Part shown: piece after piece, positions 23,341-32,773 of the stretch
Layout of the letters: every line of letters begins with the position of its first letter
Position numbering within the stretch: the stretch's first letter is position 1
Assembly (NCBI GenBank): GCA_021904315.1
Contig: CM038918.1
Coordinates: forward strand, 20,273,303-20,337,302
Origin: Sphagnum magellanicum
Taxonomy: Eukaryota; Streptophyta; Sphagnopsida; Sphagnales; Sphagnaceae
DNA: 64,000 bases
Direction of reading: 5' to 3'
Notes under the pieces: generated by a model
Database searches by the model: none
What the model was told of the DNA's origin: nothing
Seen by the model: the letters and a program-made list of their open reading frames with translations, nothing else
Program-made: the position numbers and the translations under genes

Positions 23341-24102
23341 TATATATGTGCAAATAACAAAGTTTACAAATATAAACCTTTTTTTTTTTTTGGTTATTTC
23401 ATTATCACTAGTAGTGCATAGTAATGCAGAGCTCAAGTTGATTTAGGTTTGGAAATTGTTGTTAGGACTCTATATGCCTTCTAACAAATCATGAAAAATC
23501 TAGAATGAAAATCCTTCCAAATTGTTCTTGCAAAAGTTTTATAAGCTTTTTAATGGTCAAAATTGATGTGTTTTTTTAAACAACAATATAATTTTGAAAT
23601 AAAATATTATATCTTGAATTTTCAAAAACATTTACAAATTAGTGAAAAACATTTGGCCCAAATTAACATTTCTTTGGGGGCGATCCTCACCAAATGGTAT
23701 TTTTGGAAACTTAGTGTTTTTTGAAGTTATTTCATCAATAGAATTTGAAAAACAGCTTTTATAAAAAAAATCATCAAATTCTATCCTAAGTTCCAATAGG
23801 TAGAAGGATGTTAGAGTTTTTAAGACTTTCATAAATTTTTATTGCCAAATCTAGCTAAATCATCTTATGGATGATCACCACTTTGACTACATCACAAAAT
23901 TGAAACAAAAAACCTTAGCCCAAACATATATGTAAAAAATAGTTCAGAATCAATGGATTATTATTGGCTAACACCGAAGGTGAAAATTTGCCACTTATGT
24001 TACAACATAACCATTTTCTAAGCAAACATTACATGGAATTGAGATATTTCCTTGTGAATTCAATAAATCAGAAATAATGTCAACTAATTACATTTGATGT
24101 AT
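23341..24102. other. Intergenic, AT-rich, no gene seen
   Basis: Nothing recognised before the CACTA boundary; the last three bases (TAT, 24100-24102) are the left target-site copy of the CACTA element. Confidence 0.55.
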
Positions 24103-24660
24103 CACTACTACATATTGTGCTTTTTTACGAAGGGAAAAACAAAAAACCGGAAGGGTTTGCGAAGCAAAAACAACCTGCCATATTTGCGATGTGACACGCA
24201 TCGCACCTTGTGGTTCACCAACCATCACTAATATATAATGTACATTAAATCATCGCAGCACTTTTGCGACATATATCACAACCAAAACTTTGCGACCCTC
24301 TCAGTCTCCGTGCATGCTAGCGATATTCCACAGTTCGCACCTCTTAATCATATTCACAACATTGCAAATTTTTAAATACACAAACTATCGCAAAACACTT
24401 TGAGACTCACAAGAAATCGCAATCTTGCGTTAATCGGCGCATCGCATTTTGCGTTTGAATATGTATCGCAAACCTCATCACAAATTTTTACAAAAGTTTC
24501 CGGTGTTGGACGTATCGCAAGTTGCAGTGTGCGTTAGTTCGCAAAGTAGTAAAAGGGATCCTAGAAAAGGAAGTTTCACAAAAGGTTTCGCAATGTCATC
24601 TAATTTATCACAACCTTTTTTAAATCGCATAAAATCTCGGTGACATTGAGGTAGTACATG
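24103..24660. repeat. Left subterminal repeat array of the CACTA element
   Basis: About fifteen TGCGA/TCGCA words, often as TTTGCGA or its inverse, lie in roughly 550 bp. En/Spm-type elements carry such subterminal arrays as TnpA binding sites; that these are binding sites here is inferred. Confidence 0.7.
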
Positions 24661-24818
24661 CAGTAGTGCAAAGGAGAGTAGTACAAAGTTCCTAAAGGGC
24701 CTACTCTCGGAACTGTAAAGGCTAAAATTCGCTAAAGACTTTGACACAATGAACATTGTGGAGTAATATAGAACCACAAGCCTCAATGGCAATTTGCATA
24801 AAAATAATGAGTAGTACA

Positions 24819-27800
24819 TTATACGTGGTCATCATCCACCTCAGAGGTTGTAAGCACAACCTCTAGTTTCTCACCTATAATAGAATGGGACCGTGGCACA
24901 TATGTGACAACAAATGACCACTCCTCTGGGTTTGGGGGATAAGGAAGATAAAAGCATTGTTTTACATGACTGGGAAAAGTAAATGGTTCTGAAGTTTGCC
25001 AATGAGATGGCTGATAATTGGTGGCAGATGTCTTTAACCGTGTGTGTCCGCACTCATCCTGAACTACAGTGTAATTTGCACCAGCAAGGTTCACTTTAAA
25101 CCACTTGCACTTAAACACATACTCTTCAAACTTTGAATGTGCATCATAAAACACCACCAAGATCTCTTCCAGCTTTCCATAATGTGGCACAATATCTCGA
25201 ACAATATTCCTGTCATGCCGACTGCTTCTAGAGTCCTGAATGAATTGCCCTTGAACTCCACAGTCAAAGCCTCTTTTCATCCAAAGTGGAAATCTTGAAA
25301 TTAATATTGTGTTAGGCATTGTGAATCAACAACTTATATGATAATAGAAACTTCATGCCCATAAAAATCATCCTAGAACATTCTAAAAAACTTGTCTGGA
25401 ATGTGAAGATGAGTTAATATGCCTAATGAAATAGAAAAAATAAATACCTGAAATGTCTTCCTTGTGTCCACATTGCTGAACGTGTTGTCACAACTCTCTG
25501 TGGTCCATGAACAATGGTGCGAACATCATCTGTGATCTCTGGAAAACATGATATACTTTCTCCTTGTGCCAACAATTGATCCACTTCAGCCAACTTCTCT
25601 TTCATGTACTTATGCAACGTAGGAAAAATCCTTGATCTCCCACTCATACTTTTGGCATTCTCATAGAAGTTCCTCCACTCTTCCATGGCATTGCTATTAT
25701 TCAACATGAATGTGGTCAAATGAATTAACTTTGTAGGTAATAACATACGTGTTTGGATGGCACCAGTCAAACGGTCTTCCTCCTCTTCTCTTTCCTCCAT
25801 CTAGACATGAGGACATGATGGATCTATAGTGGCCAAGATGTTGGTGCAATAAAACATGTTCTCTACTGCCAAGTGTCCTGTTGCCATGCTTCCCTCCACT
25901 CGTGCATGGTTACGGACATAACCCTTTAATACTGCCATATATCTTTCAAGCCAATACATCCACCAACAATGCACAGGACCAGCAATGGCTATCTCACCCA
26001 CAAGGTGAATTAGTAAATGCACTTGACAATCAAAAAATGATGGAGGAAAGGCCTTTTCCAACTTGCATACCACCTCTGCTGCTATTACCTTCATTCTTGG
26101 AATCTCCTCTACAAATAACTCCTTTGAGCATACCCATCTCAACAGATATCCCAATGACCAAAGAGCATCTTGTACTTCTGCACTAGCTAAGCCTATTATT
26201 GCCACAAGCAATATGTGCTGCAGTAAATGATGATAGTCATGTGTCTTCAAATACCTTGGCCACTTATGGTCATCGTCCCTACCAAAGGCTTTTTGAAGAT
26301 TAGCTCCATAACCTGCAACAAGGATCCATAAAATTATACAAAAGTATTATAGACATCCAACAGATAGCCAACTATATTTCAAACTCTTTTTCTAGTATAA
26401 GGCATACATATTTAAATATAAATAAAAGCAACATAGTACTTCTAAATTCAACCCTTGCCATCAAAGTTCAAACCTATAGGGAATCGCATCTCTCCTATGC
26501 GATTTCGAAAGTCTTTTCTTTCTTGTGTAGTAAGTGTCCATGGAGCTGATGGTCGCTATTCAATACTTGTGTTAGGATCAACAGTAATCCACACATCGGG
26601 ATGCCTCTCAAAATCCTCACAGGCCTCCCTAAAGTTACTATCCTTCTCTCCATAGAGCTGTTTTATGATAGCCTTGCCCACATTTCCCTCAATGTGCATG
26701 GGGTCCAAGAGATGACGTATTTTCAACTCACCCCAATAGGGCAAACTGTTGAGTATACCCCACCTTGTCAATCCACTACCCTCAAACACCATAGAATCAT
26801 TTGGGTCAATAACTTTATTGGCCACATCCTTCCAATATGCAAAAGTGGTAGTTTCTGGAATATCATGCTCATCACCATAAGGCATGTCAAAAGATGAAAA
26901 TAAAAGTGGGTCTGATCTCATATCATGTCCCAGTGGAAGAAATTTTGTATGGCCAAGGTAAACAATTTTGCGAAGATGGCTTGAGTATTTAGCCATGTCC
27001 TCGAAACTTGGGCCACATGTAGAGCAGGCCTTGTAGCCTTGAGTTTGTAGCCCACTTACAAAACCAAACCCTGATTATAGAAGAGCTGAATATTAGAATA
27101 ATAAATAATCACAAAACATAATAATAATAAAATATATAGAGGCATGTGCATGATTTCTTACCAAGATAGTCATGCATTGTCCACATGCAGATTGCCCTCA
27201 ACTTGAATACACGTGGTATTCCTCCAGTGGTCTTCCTCCCATCATATGCCCATACTCCATCCCACAGTGTTTTGAGCTCATCGACCACTAGTGCTAAGTA
27301 GGTGTCTAGGTTTTTCACCTTACTTGGCCCTGGGATAATAAGAGAAAGCAGCAAAAATCTTTTTCTCATAGACAACCATGGAGGAAGGTTGTAATTCACG
27401 ACAACAACTGGCCAAACAAAGGTAGGTCGTCCCTTTCCTCCAAGTGAATGTGGACTAACACCATCTGATGCTAACCCCAACCTCAGATGCCTAGGGTCAT
27501 GCTCAAACTCTGGCCATGTTGACTCCACATGCTTGTGAGCAAGAGAGTCAACCGGTAACCTCATAACACCAGGCTCTGATCGATGTTTCTTATGCCAAAC
27601 CATTAACTCGGCCAAGTCTGTACATCGATACATGTGCAACAAGCGAGGAATAATGGGAAACCACTTTACTGATTTCCTAGGCACCTTTTTTGTAAGCATG
27701 TGAGGATCATATCGAGCCTCTTCACATGTACTGCACTCCGTTAAATGGGCATTGTTCCCATGAAATAACATGCGGTCATTAACACATGCATGGACAATTT

Positions 27801-28320
27801 GATACTCCATGCCTATGGAGGATAAGATCTTTTTAGCCTCCTTCCAAGATCCTGGCAAAACATTTTCCTCAAGCAGCAAGAGGCTATGACAATACTGGAA
27901 AATGTCTGACAACATAGTATTACTTGCCTTGTGTTTTGCTTGGATGTTTAACAACCCCAGTATGGCTGCTAAACGGCTTAACCTTGCACCTTGAAAAATA
28001 AGTGTTCGAGCATGTGCCTCCGCCTCTTGCCACTGCTGTTGTCCCTAGGCAGTATGTTGATGATGTGGAACATCTGCATTGGCTCCTTCATCATGTGGGT
28101 TGCCAGACATATCATCAACTATGTCAAATCCAAACCAGTCAACCATGAAGTCATCCATTGCTTGTTCTTGGTTTGCAGGCAATGGTGCTTCCTGAACTGG
28201 TTGAGAGACACCTTCATCATGACCAGATAAGTCATTTGATGAAGAATGAGTTGATGAAGAGTCTGATTTGTGTGGCATGCCCATTTCCCGATATGTTGCT
28301 CTCAACCTTCGTGGCAGCAT
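24819..28320 (-). pseudogene. TNP2-type CACTA transposase, three in-frame TAG stops
   Basis: Four exons with matching phases: 28320-27162, 27070-26474, 26312-25448, 25293-24819, 1,031 codons in all, typical for TNP2. An acidic N-terminus leads to the Transposase_21 (PF02992) core: a CxxC pair (STCEEARYDP), FPIIPRLLHMYR, the LRLGLASDGVSPH block with a likely catalytic Asp, then WPVVVVNYNLPPWL and LIIPGP, and GLQTQGYKACSTCGPS and LDPMHIEGNVGK in exon 2. Exon 3 carries the DUF4218 region (HHLLQHILLVA, FPPSFFDCQVHLLIHLVGE, ERYMAVLKGYVRNHARVEGS in part) and exon 4 a DUF4216-like segment. TAG codons interrupt codons 92 (28047-28045), 558 (26558-26556) and 756 (25803-25801); frame and splice sites are otherwise intact. 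An upstream exon with the usual transposase-associated domain was not found. The chosen start is the first ATG of the open exon. Confidence 0.9.
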
Positions 28321-28487
28321 GTCTTCAGAAGGCCGAATATTCTATGCAATACCAAATCTAGAATATCTTAACTATATACCAAACATAGTTGCATATTACA
28401 TTATAAATAAAAAATGCCAAAATGCATGTATATAGATATGGTATGTTATGTCTTAAACAAAGTACATGGTTCAGAAATGGTGGAATC

Positions 28488-29635
28488 CTAACTCCACTCA
28501 TAGTGTGTAAACAACTCATCTCCTGATCTGATGGTCCTAATAACTATAACCAAGCAATGGTCTTCATGATAAGTCTGGCCATATGGTGCTGGAGGAGGTC
28601 CCTCAACAAAAACCCACTCACAATTAGCCCTACGCTTAGGATGAGTCCCCACTGTGCTGTTGATGAAACCAACAATTTTTCCAGAACATATGGGGTCTCC
28701 ATCTATCACCCTCACATCACTATGCCTCCTAGTGCTACCAGCAAAGGTGTCCATCTCAAGAGCAAAGGTCTTCCACTCAGGATGTTATGTGAGGATCCTG
28801 TTCCAATGTCTTCTCTTATAGATAGGCCCACCATAAGGGAACAAAGTAGGACCCTCTCTACGACATCTAACTGAATCCTCTACAATGATGTCCTCACAAG
28901 CATATACTCCATAGCCATGCCTCTCTCTAAGTGTAGAGGTCTTAACAATCCATCGTCTACCCCAAACCACAACCTCCTCGTCATAGGGCAAACTATCAAG
29001 CAACCCAAGAACTGCAGGGTTCCATGATTGGATAATATTGGCACATTTGCCAGTGAACTCACACATACCCCATCTGCCCTCAACAATAGTCCTAGCATGA
29101 CCCTCACTTGGACGTTGTGCTTTGGATCACTGTCTAACGGAGGGCACACGTGGCCTTGCCTCATGATGTGGCTTATTGGCCTCATGAGAGGTACCAATCC
29201 CTACAGCAAATGCATGCGAAAGTGCATTTCCTATGGCAGCTAAAACCCCTTGTGATAGAACATAGGGTGGTGGTTTCATACGGGAACCCTATTACATTCA
29301 AAAAACCACAACAAACCATGGAAGTGAAAATAATTTCAAAGAGGATTTCATGAAAAATAACATGTATCAAAGAGGAAAAAATGACAATGGTAAATGACAC
29401 TTACCACATGAGATGAAGAAGCTCCTGGAGTAAGACCACGATGACGCCCAAATCACTGAATGTGTTGAGCACAGACATATGACTTTTGTGAAATCTGACC
29501 AACACACTTGGTGCATTGGCAAAGCTACCGAGGTGGACCACGAGGAGAATGAGACACCTCTGCCTGCGTATGAGTTGATGTGCCCTCATTTGAGGAGGAT
29601 GAGTCACTAGTGGACACAATGGAAGAGGAAGACAT
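28488..29635 (-). pseudogene. SET-domain-like gene inside the CACTA element
   Basis: Two exons, 29635-29405 and 29288-28488, join in phase 0 across a GTAAGT...TAG intron. The start MSSSSIVSTSDSSSSNEG leads to a CQCTKC-x(n)-H-like zinc motif (about codons 39-58). Exon 2 carries a SET-like series in the right order: GYGVYACEDI (GxG motif), LFPYGGPIYKRRHW (YxG), RVIDGDP, GKIVGFINST (cf. RFINHS), ANCEWVF, and IRTIRSGDELFTHYEW at the C-terminus (cf. GEEL..DY). SET domains methylate protein lysines; the usual DY is HY here and no post-SET cysteines follow, so activity is uncertain. Four in-frame stops break the frame: TAG 29527-29525, TGA 29455-29453, TGA 29129-29127, TAA 28787-28785. It lies about 170 bp upstream of the transposase on the same strand. 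Domain identity is my reading of motifs, not a search. Confidence 0.65.
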
Positions 29636-30271
29636 ATCATCTGTCACATTAATACGACACAAGTGTAAGGCAAAGACCAGATTAGACTTTCAAAAATCAT
29701 GTCATACAACAATATAAACCCTTGACTACTCATAAATTGAGACAACCTAAACAAAAAAGAAATGCATACCTGCATCCAATGTGGGCTCAACAATGCCTAG
29801 AGGACTGGTTGCTCAAATAATCCCAACACCAATTCCGAAATAGGGGGCAATACTGTAAAAACCCTTTGGCATATGCAAAAAAAAACAACAAAATGTTAAA
29901 GCCAGAATAAATTAAAACTTTGCGAACCCCTTGTGAACCCCCCACCATCGCATCCCTTTTCGCACAAAAGCCCTAAACCCTAAAACTTCCTCTTACATTA
30001 GCGAAGTCCTCGACTTCGCAACCCTGCAACATTGCGAAAGTAACAGCATTGCACGACCTTTGCGATAAAACCCGTATTACAAGTTTCGATGCGGGTTACA
30101 TCGCAAGCCCTGAATTGCCGAAAGTCCTTAAGGGGTAGTGAAACGAAATCCCTTGAAGTTGGTGTAGTGAAATCTTTTTGGGGTCCTAGATTGAAACGAC
30201 GTCGGAATTTGAATTCATTCTCGGCATTGCTCGAGAATTGTCGAAGGAAAGCTTGGGCAGAGCGGATTGCA
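29636..30271. promoter_or_regulatory. Divergent promoter region inside the CACTA element
   Basis: Separates the minus-strand SET-like gene from the plus-strand TnpA-like gene. From about 29,915 to 30,120 it contains some seven TGCGA/TCGCA words like those at the element ends, which could allow regulation by the element's own DNA-binding protein (inference). Confidence 0.45.
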
Positions 30272-32047
30272 ATGGCTGGGACTAGTGGAGGGGGTTCTAG
30301 GTCTGGAGGAGGTGACAACAATGAGGAAAGGTTGAGGAAGATGATTGCTGATCACTTGAGAGCTTCAGAGCTCTCTGCAATCGATACTAGGACACCTGAA
30401 GGGTTGGCATCCTTGACAGCCATTTTAGGTCAAGCACTGCAAGCAGGGCTGACTGCTGGGGAAGCACAAAAAGATGAGGAGGCAAGGAAGGCTACAGAAG
30501 CCAAGGCAGCAGAGAAGAAGAGAAAGAGAGATGAGAGAGCAATAACATGAGCTCTCTCACCTAGAACTCTCGAGAAGAAAAGGAGGAAGGATGAGAGGGA
30601 TGCCATCAGAAAGGAGAAGCTCGACCTGAAGAAGAAGGAGGAGGAGAGGAAGAAGCTCCCTTTGATAACATTGGCAGAGGAGGGAATTCCAACCAAGCTG
30701 GCATACACTGGGGCGAAGAGCACCATTAGGCACATTGTCTCCACCAACTTTGCACGAGGAGTTGAGTGGGGCACTCTCTCAAAGGCAGAGCAGAAGAGAG
30801 TGATAAATCAGGTCAAGGGAGCATTTCGAAATGGAGGAGAGCTTGATTCACAGTGGATTACAGACAAGATCTCCAATTCAATGTCTCAAGCAAGATACCA
30901 TGACAGGATGAAGATTCGTGCTCACCTGAAAGACTTGAATGTGTACAGGAACTTGGACAGGCCGCTTCAGTTCTCAGAAGACATCTGGAATGCCTTCTAC
31001 CAGTTTGAGGTGCAGCTGAAAGCAGCAAGGCAGCTGAAGGAGATCACAAAGCAGCTAGCCAAGGCCAAGAAGGCAAGAGAGTTTGGGAGGTCTGACCGTG
31101 ACCTGAAGGCACTGGAGCTGAAGCTTGCTGAATGCCAATCAGTGGTGGACGAGGTTGGTGATCCACCATTGAAGTTCCTGAAGGCAGCAGAGCGAGTGAA
31201 AATGGTTCCAAACACCACCCACAAGGTAGGGCAAGGTGGCATTCCCGGCCTCAAAGCAGCATTTGTAAGTACCCTAAACCCTTTCCTCCATTTTTTTCCT
31301 GCAAAGACTCACATCCTTGTGAGTTTCTGTCAAGTCAAACTGGACTGTTTGCGATACCTTTGCGATGCGAATTGCATCGCAAAGACAGGTATATGGAGTT
31401 TTGGCCTTTTGGGTTGCGATAGTAGATACGATGCGATTTGTTTCGCAAGCTGCTTCGCAAGTGTTAATATGCGAAGGTCTGCGCTTTGCAAAAGTGGTCG
31501 GATTTATGCGTTTTTTTTACCTGTTGTATTATGGGGACAATACAAGAGGTACAAGAGGAAGATCACAGCTGCAGAAATGAATATGGGCCAGGAGCATGGC
31601 AAGGAGCATCTTTTTCAACATGTTGATGCACTATTGGTGAGTGGGTTTGGTTGGGATTCAATTTCTGTTTGTGTTGAAATTGTTTTCATTTGAATCAAGA
31701 TTTTCATTGAATAAGCTTTGCATGTTGAAATGCAGGCATCTAAGGGTGAGAGTGAGAGCTCCGAGGGCAGTAGTGATGAGGAGGAGAGAGCAGGTAGCAC
31801 TGCTCCCAGTGTGCTACCTGCTCCGAGTGCTACCACTAATAGTGGACCCAATTCATTTGTTAGTCGAAATGAAGGTTCTGCAGGGGCCAAAGATAAAGAG
31901 AATAAGGAGGAGGAGGAGGAGGAGGAGGAGGAGGGGCAGGGGGACGATGAAGAGAGGGAGGAGGATGAGCAACCTCCCCCTCCACCAGAGAACACTAGGA
32001 AGAAAGATTCAAGGAAGAAATCCAAGAGGGGAAGGAGGTCTAGATAA
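30272..32047 (+). pseudogene. TnpA-like DNA-binding protein of the CACTA element, one in-frame TGA
   Basis: Three phase-0 exons: 30272-31264, about 31547-31636, 31736-32047; 464 codons. MAGTSGGGSRSGGG is followed by a charged region (KAAEKKRKRDERA), a TGA at 30548-30550, then KLAYTGAKSTIRHIV, AEQKRVINQVKGAFRNGGEL and SQARYHDRMKIRAHLKD. The basic RYHDRMK-type segment and the W-x-Y aromatic pattern after it recall plant En/Spm 'Transposase_24' proteins. A coiled-coil-like Lys/Glu region follows (about 250-310), and the C-terminus is acidic poly-Glu, proline-rich, then KKSKRGRRSR. Opposite orientation to the transposase, position inside the element, and TGCGA hairpins in its first intron suggest the role of TnpA: binding subterminal repeats. 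The second exon's acceptor is my best choice, not certain. Confidence 0.65.
31359..31383. repeat. TGCGA hairpin in the TnpA-like gene's intron
   Basis: Perfect 10-bp arms TTTGCGATGC and GCATCGCAAA around GAATT, inside a cluster of about nine TGCGA/TCGCA words (31,345-31,490). Confidence 0.75.
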
Positions 32048-32159
32048 ACAACTAGTGTGTTAGATACCCAAGGGTTGCAAACCCTTTTACATTGTAAAAT
32101 TTGAAATTTTGATATAGATTTTTTTTTTTTGCGGCCCAAAGTGACCCAAATAAACCCTG

Positions 32160-32770
32160 CTTCCAAAATAAGAATATAGTGACATGCTCTTGCGATACAC
32201 AGTGCATCTCAAAAAAATTTGCGAGTCATAATTCTTTGCAATACTGCAAAAGCCAAAAGACCAATAATACCATGTCACAGACATCGCTACACTCTTGGGG
32301 GTAAAATCATTCTAGAACACGTTTGCGAAATCTATGATTTCGCAAACTTTTAGCGGCATTTTGAGAATCCGAAAAAGTTTGCGTGGTTTCCGATATAAGA
32401 TCTAACCCAAACTTGTTGGGATTCTCAAAATGCCGCTAAGGGTTTGCGATGGACCTTATTTCGGAAACCGATAGACTTTTGAATCGATTCACCAAGTCGT
32501 TGCGGCGATGGGTTTGTTGCAAATAGTTTCTGATGTAATGTCAATCGCAAACGGTATATAGAAGCAGTTACAATCGTAAAAGGTTTGCGATTGTATCAAG
32601 TTTGAGAGTTGTGAAGGACTTGCGATTGTACGGGTGCGAATGTTATAGTATCGCAAAGGCTTAACAATTTGTGAGGAGTTATGGTTCGCAAATGCGGGTT
32701 TTCGGAAACTTCTTTCTTTGTTGTTTGCGATGATATGTGGATCGCAAAATAGCCCCCTGTTGTTGTAGTG
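32160..32770. repeat. Right subterminal repeat array of the CACTA element
   Basis: About thirteen TGCGA/TCGCA words in 600 bp up to the right terminus, mirroring the left end. Confidence 0.7.
32321..32439. repeat. Nested perfect inverted repeats near the right CACTA end
   Basis: A 12-bp hairpin (GTTTGCGAAATC at 32321-32332 with 32336-32347, loop TAT) is followed directly by a perfect 21-bp inverted repeat, arms 32350-32370 and 32419-32439, spaced by 48 bp. Confidence 0.85.
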
Positions 32771-32773
32771 TAT

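Follow-up and report, generated by a model that had tools for sequence, protein, structure and literature searches.

The question raised by this locus is why a gene for a SET-like protein should lie directly beside the transposase gene of a CACTA transposon in the moss Sphagnum magellanicum, and whether it is a regular part of that transposon or a single accidental capture. Among the classified repeats of Sphagnum, CACTA elements are the most abundant type, making up 6.8% of the genome (PMC9946827). The stretch of DNA analysed here, termed the window, is 64,000 nucleotides long. A previous reading, made from the letters of the window without database searches (the sequence-only reading), had proposed a SET-domain-like gene carried by a CACTA element. 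Here, we follow up that proposal, beginning with the anatomy of the element and ending with the part that the gene may play in its life.

The CACTA element and its SET-like gene

The transposon in the window is a CACTA/EnSpm element: it has terminal repeats and a 3-bp target site duplication (TSD), a transposase matching PF02992 (TNP2) together with DUF4218 and DUF4216 segments, and clustered subterminal repeats (table 1). The sequence-only reading had described an element of 8.7 kb, and the length in table 1 agrees with it. The subterminal motifs TTGCGA and TCGCAA occur at 34 sites within the element and at 8 elsewhere in the window (55 kb); those of the element are placed mostly near the element ends and between the divergent genes (around 29920-31460). 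These dense repeats are likely to be binding sites for an element protein. The second gene, which runs divergently on the forward strand, gave no convincing Pfam match, and is a possible TNPA-like partner with affinity for the subterminal repeats. Close to the right terminus (32340-32449) lies a 45-nt inverted repeat with 89% complementarity and a 20-nt loop.

Table 1. Features of the CACTA element in the window. Positions are those of the window.
Feature	Position	Strand	Description
CACTA (EnSpm) element	24103-32770	-	8,668 bp; ends CACTAC...GTAGTG (ends read in sequence)
3-bp TSD, TAT	24100-24102 and 32771-32773		flanks the CACTA element
Subterminal TTGCGA/TCGCAA repeats	left end 24157..24593; second cluster 32190-32747	both orientations
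DUF4216 segment	24819..25325	-	PF13952, 2.2e-7
DUF4218 segment of transposase	25801..26346	-	PF13960, 1.2e-30
TNP2 transposase, next segment	26556..27074	-	PF02992, 1.1e-7
TNP2 transposase exon	27109..28341	-	PF02992, 1.8e-37; preceded by acceptor CATAG; one premature stop in window copy
SET-like gene	29635-28488	-	directly upstream of TNP2, same strand as transposase
SET-like gene, exon 2	28488..29288	-	266 codons + TAG; SET-like domain about 28488-28985; two premature stops in window copy
SET-like gene, intron	29289..29404	-	GTAAGTG...AATAG, phase 0
SET-like gene, exon 1	29405..29635	-	77 codons; CQCTKC...H...GRH zinc-finger-like domain; two in-frame stops in window copy
Divergent second gene	about 30274..32047	+	Lys/Glu-rich, acidic tail

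The SET-like gene has the structure that had been claimed for it, namely two exons joined in phase 0 across a GTAAGT donor and an AG acceptor, and its position upstream of TNP2 on the transposase strand is likewise confirmed. Twenty genomic copies were aligned, of which 19 are alignable at the exon junction; here the donor GTAAGTG is found in 19/19 and the acceptor AG in 17/19. The same junction is used in the gene models P0002, P0008, P0010 and P0012 of S. jensenii and S. troendelagicum, while models P0003 and P0005 (the latter from S. magellanicum) place the start Met within exon 2 and do without the zinc finger. The gene ends at a terminal stop in 20/20 copies, and the acceptor CATAG of the TNP2 exon is also kept in 20/20.

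One feature had escaped the sequence-only reading: the window copy contains four premature in-frame stops in the SET-like gene, two in each exon, and one more in the TNP2 exon. Because of these stops, the SET-like gene of the window is a pseudogene in a dead copy. Other copies in the genome keep the gene open: neither exon has a premature stop or a frame shift in three of the 20 aligned copies, and the SET part has no stop in 48 of 77 full-length genomic rows. Premature stops fall at identical codons in several copies (L009-L028 and the window; SET exon 2 and TNP2), and the shared changes are mostly C-to-T. Deamination of methylated cytosines would be expected to leave such recurrent stops and such a C-to-T bias in copies that are silenced.

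Carriage of the gene across the genome

The 439-Mb assembly (G000) was searched for both genes. The SET part gave 120 genome matches, which merge to 105 loci. The TNP2 family of the window occupies at least 105 loci, as 128 of 623 candidates were scored, and at 99 of these 105 TNP2 loci a SET part lies directly upstream on the same strand. The gap between SET and TNP2 has a median of 450 bp and measures 440-460 bp in 79 of the 99. By contrast, SET was not found within 5 kb of any of 14 other TNP2 loci, whose TNP2 is 41-46% identical. When 20 loci were sampled on the form of the TNP2 match, irrespective of SET content, exon 2 was present in 19 (main piece 89-94% identical at the protein level) and exon 1 in 18; the sole SET-free locus (L015) belongs to another TNP2 family. 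Among nine shorter TNP2 loci SET was found in five; of the other four, L032-L034 are members of different TNP2 families, and L029 no longer has its 5′ part.

Mobility can be read from the element ends. All nine further elements for which both ends were fetched are flanked by perfect 3-bp TSDs (ATC, CAC, CAT, TTG, TGT, TAT, ATG, ATA and AAT), two of the nine having single-base changes in CACTA; with the window included, TSDs are perfect in 10/10 elements with both ends in view. Since 99/105 TNP2 loci carry SET and 10/10 elements show perfect duplications, the gene is not a one-off capture, the point for which the sequence-only reading had proposed a search for further CACTA copies. This Sphagnum CACTA family regularly carries the SET-like gene, which moves with it. 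A SET gene that is a mere neighbour of TNP2 outside the element is excluded by the same carriage and mobility.

A host SET gene was not found at E 1e-3, and all 120 genome matches form one family (at least 74% identity). On the same two findings, capture of a recognisable host gene fragment in the manner of Pack-CACTA elements was rejected.

SET identity of the encoded protein

Identification of the protein relies on profile comparisons and on its motifs. In the HMM check against PF00856, the read-through of the window copy scores 20.3 and 21.1 bits, the latter at E 4e-4; both values lie below the cut-off of 22.4 bits. Relatives do better, with PF00856 detected at E<=0.1 in 16/19. In a scan of nine relatives, P0002, P0014, P0027, P0032 and P0046 are over the cut-off and P0017 and P0045 under it, while P0042 and P0054 have no match; four genomic copies individually exceed the curated cut-off. 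Comparison with host SET domains by hhalign gave E 2.8e-5, and the profile-profile score of 36.7 stands against values of at most 18.6 for 30 column shuffles. By host SET class, ATX profiles score 25.0 and 26.1 and SUVH scores 18.1, the last of these within the shuffled range. Two AlphaFold models of the protein are poor (pLDDT 46 and 56). Taken as sequence comparisons, these results indicate a SET homology that is real but remote.

The motifs GxG, YxG, FINxxxxN and ELxxxY are present, and in the window copy the SET-like motifs follow the order previously reported for them. At the positions that we take to be the catalytic Tyr and the key Asn residues, the catalytic-type Tyr is kept in 38/39 relatives, the first Asn in 41/41 and the second Asn in 39/39 of those covering them, many of these rows being close Sphagnum relatives and so non-independent. 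The NH of the NHSC motif is changed in 41/41 relatives, to NS, NN or NG (Ser in 36, Asn in three and Gly in two). Methyltransferase activity is therefore uncertain, and because the NH is replaced the protein is filed as SET-like, a divergent relative. It is probably a chromatin-marking enzyme of SET type.

Exon 1 and the zinc finger of the transposase

The sequence-only reading had noted a C-x2-C zinc-like N-terminus. Such a feature exists in the form of a C-x-C-x2-C (CQCTKC)...H...GRH domain, and what has to be corrected is its affiliation: the exon 1 domain resembles the N-terminal zinc finger of the TNP2 transposase itself. The comparison comes from TNP2 loci that do not have SET. Locus L001, from another TNP2 family, holds CPCNRC...GHLILNGRH within a single 674-aa frame shared with TNP2, and this stretch matches PF13963 (Transpos_assoc) at 8e-5 and 23.1 bits, under the curated cut-off of 27.7; exon 1 alone fails to reach PF13963. 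By tblastn, exon 1 is 41% identical over 29 aa (E 3e-4) to locus L033, in the same frame as TNP2 and 63 bases upstream of the stretch that matches TNP2. L033 (G000:C4:8434096-8437039) is SET-free, with a TNP2 that is 33% identical, and is broken by a later stop. Its zinc-finger motif stands in frame just before TNP2 with no SET between them, an arrangement that resembles a SET-less state. With a profile built from exon 1, L001 and L033 are only marginal matches (best stretch E 0.03 and 0.004, respectively). The motif pattern itself has six occurrences among 12 TNP2 loci lacking SET, one family accounting for four of them, and none in 40 resampled sets of the same dinucleotide make-up.

As exon 1 resembles the transposase zinc finger, the SET exon would separate the zinc-finger exon from that of TNP2. 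The TNP2 exon has an acceptor of its own, from which it is open in phase 0, the phase in which exon 1 ends, so in-frame splicing to either SET or TNP2 is possible; we infer that exon 1 is spliced alternatively to the one or the other. A fusion of zinc finger, SET and TNP2 does not appear to be the default, since the SET stop is present in every aligned copy. Two predicted models, P0009 of S. jensenii and P0054 of Riccia, skip this stop and join SET to TNP2.

Relatives in other bryophytes

Relatives of the SET-like protein are found in six Sphagnum species, among them S. jensenii, S. troendelagicum, S. balticum, S. tenellum and S. fallax, in the liverworts Calypogeia fissa (73% identity in the SET part) and Riccia sorocarpa, and also among metagenome proteins. 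Distant relatives in the last group are P0045 and P0080-P0082, and long His/Asp-rich N-termini are seen in P0045, P0080 and P0081.

The neighbourhood of SET and TNP2 extends beyond the mosses, as shown by R. sorocarpa P0054, in which a SET region, PF02992 and PF13960 fall within one predicted model. This model, which has no PF00856 match, also lacks the last SET motif, and could be either a true fusion or an artefact of gene prediction. Its identity to the window is 37% for SET (138 aa), 40% for TNP2 (346 aa) and 55% for DUF4218 (151 aa); by the first two values, conservation of SET is about equal to that of one part of the transposase.

Selection in the recent burst

Variation within Sphagnum was examined in a burst of 20 copies that are about 96% identical in DNA, with an expectation drawn from the same mutation types placed at random sites. 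SET variants common to at least two copies comprise 59 replacing, five stop and 19 silent changes (expected 58.5, 6.6 and 17.9), and purifying selection on SET was not found among these shared variants. For TNP2, shared variants number 77 replacing, six stop and 40 silent (expected 82.7, 8.5 and 31.8), and single-copy variants 116, 10 and 56 (expected 125.0, 11.9 and 45.1). The mild signal of constraint on TNP2 is unreliable, because single-copy variants, where none is expected, show it too. Shared variants of exon 1 are 16 replacing, two stop and 16 silent (expected 22.1, 3.8 and 8.0); its single-copy variants, at 27, five and six (expected 25.9, 2.8 and 9.3), give no signal of constraint. 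In the latest burst, SET looks relaxed and exon 1 constrained. The test is weak, because shared changes are mostly C-to-T and many may be recurrent.

What the SET-like gene may do

The explanation we prefer, to which we give close to an even chance, is that the SET-like gene is an accessory gene of the transposon: its zinc finger would bring a lysine methyltransferase to the DNA of the element, and the marks laid down there would let copies escape or tune silencing. The zinc-finger exon would be spliced in phase 0 to the SET exon, yielding a zinc finger-SET protein that ends at the conserved stop, or else be spliced, again in phase 0, past SET to TNP2, yielding a zinc finger-transposase. Guided by the shared zinc finger, the SET enzyme could then reach DNA of the element itself and there mark histones (or the transposase), so that copies escape or tune host silencing. 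The transposon would benefit from a chromatin modifier directed to the same sites as its transposase. In its fullest form, one gene would make two proteins by alternative splicing around one DNA-reading zinc finger, the transposase and a histone methyltransferase that targets the element itself as a guided chromatin editor; we regard this version as rather unlikely. Whether the mark would be activating or repressive is a guess. The profile is slightly nearer to ATX than to SUVH, and other transposon-borne modifiers have been proposed to act against silencing; for these reasons a mark that eases expression seems likelier than self-silencing, if weakly so.

The chief alternative to a methyltransferase is a protein that has lost catalysis. 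The gene may be an ancient accessory that has kept the SET fold and lost its AdoMet site, its product having a structural or binding role, such as that of a TNP2 cofactor. The replacement of NH in the 41/41 relatives that cover it and the weak Pfam scores would suit such a role, but a pure scaffold would have no need of the two Asn positions and the catalytic-type Tyr that the relatives retain (41/41, 39/39 and 38/39), and we consider it unlikely. The same holds, with somewhat more doubt, for the SET exon as a passenger in the present Sphagnum family, an old gain that was useful in some lineages and dispensable for the recent burst. Purifying selection did not emerge among variants of the 20 copies and SET is broken in many of them, as a passenger would be; however, copies decay after insertion and C-to-T changes dominate, so that the selection test has little power, and a passenger is hard to reconcile with retention at 99/105 loci at almost constant spacing or with the about equal conservation of aligned SET and TNP2 parts between Sphagnum and Riccia.

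Self-limitation is known in transposons, and a repressive product might help the element to limit its own copies rather than to escape the host. A zinc finger held in common with the transposase would indeed target those copies, but the ATX scores (25.0 and 26.1) are slightly above the SUVH score of 18.1, which falls in the range of the shuffles, and both the expectation for a selfish gene and the anti-silencing precedents favour escape, which makes self-limitation improbable. Least credible, to the point of being very improbable, is that the motifs are a chance likeness or a decayed piece of a host gene beside TNP2, neither a SET relative nor a part of the element. The window copy taken alone, below the Pfam cut-off, and the poor AlphaFold models could be read in that way; the PF00856 matches in 16/19 relatives (E<=0.1), the four copies over the curated cut-off and the profile score of 36.7 speak against it. 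If a CACTA family does bring a histone-modifying enzyme aimed by the transposase zinc finger, the countering or tuning of host silencing becomes testable in a moss.

Comparison with known systems

SETMAR is a primate protein in which a SET domain is fused to a mariner transposase. It shares with the Sphagnum element the association of a SET domain with a transposase. The difference is that SETMAR is a fusion, whereas the Sphagnum SET ends at a stop in 20/20 copies, which speaks against one polypeptide, and belongs to a multi-copy family with TNP2. For the anti-silencing proteins of Arabidopsis transposons the names VANC and VANDAL are reportedly in use; to our knowledge, VANC is not a SET protein. 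That Arabidopsis transposons encode sequence-specific anti-silencing proteins is stated in the accessible portion of PMC5735166. As far as that portion describes them, these proteins and the Sphagnum SET share a proposed role, that of a product acting on the element's own copies, which for Sphagnum is inferred.

Pack-CACTA elements are described, in the available text of PMC13317346, as CACTA elements with captured non-transposase coding sequence. On that description both they and the Sphagnum family carry extra coding sequence, but in Sphagnum the gene is fixed in a family that encodes its own transposase, and it lacks a close relative in the host. Fungal DNA transposons, including the CACTA-like Plavaka, carry TET/JBP genes (accessible part of PMC12730594). 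These are likewise epigenetic enzymes on DNA transposons of the wider CACTA group; as characterised there, TET/JBP is a dioxygenase acting on 5-methylcytosine, in place of which the Sphagnum family has a SET protein.

The sequence-only reading knew of no SET-carrying CACTA family. This stands for the literature covered, a part of the open-licence PMC literature without Repbase, where an entry may exist: no paper on SET in CACTA was found. It has to be qualified by SET-bearing DNA transposons of other types that are already in print, namely HarbingerS and MuDR of Phytophthora, which carry SET histone methyltransferase genes (Kojima and Jurka 2014, cited in PMC12730594, in the part accessible). 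Given this precedent, so far as that citation goes, SET-carrying DNA transposons are known in kind. The window's element was not assigned to HarbingerS, its transposase being PF02992/TNP2. By the description in the same source, the Phytophthora elements resemble the Sphagnum CACTA in being DNA transposons with a SET gene, and are set apart by their Harbinger and MuDR transposases and oomycete hosts, compared with CACTA/TNP2, bryophyte hosts and a SET between zinc-finger and catalytic exons. The new points are thus the CACTA type, the bryophytes and the position of SET between transposase exons. With them a plant CACTA family joins the transposon types that carry SET, as would fit a repeated recruitment of histone methyltransferases by transposons.
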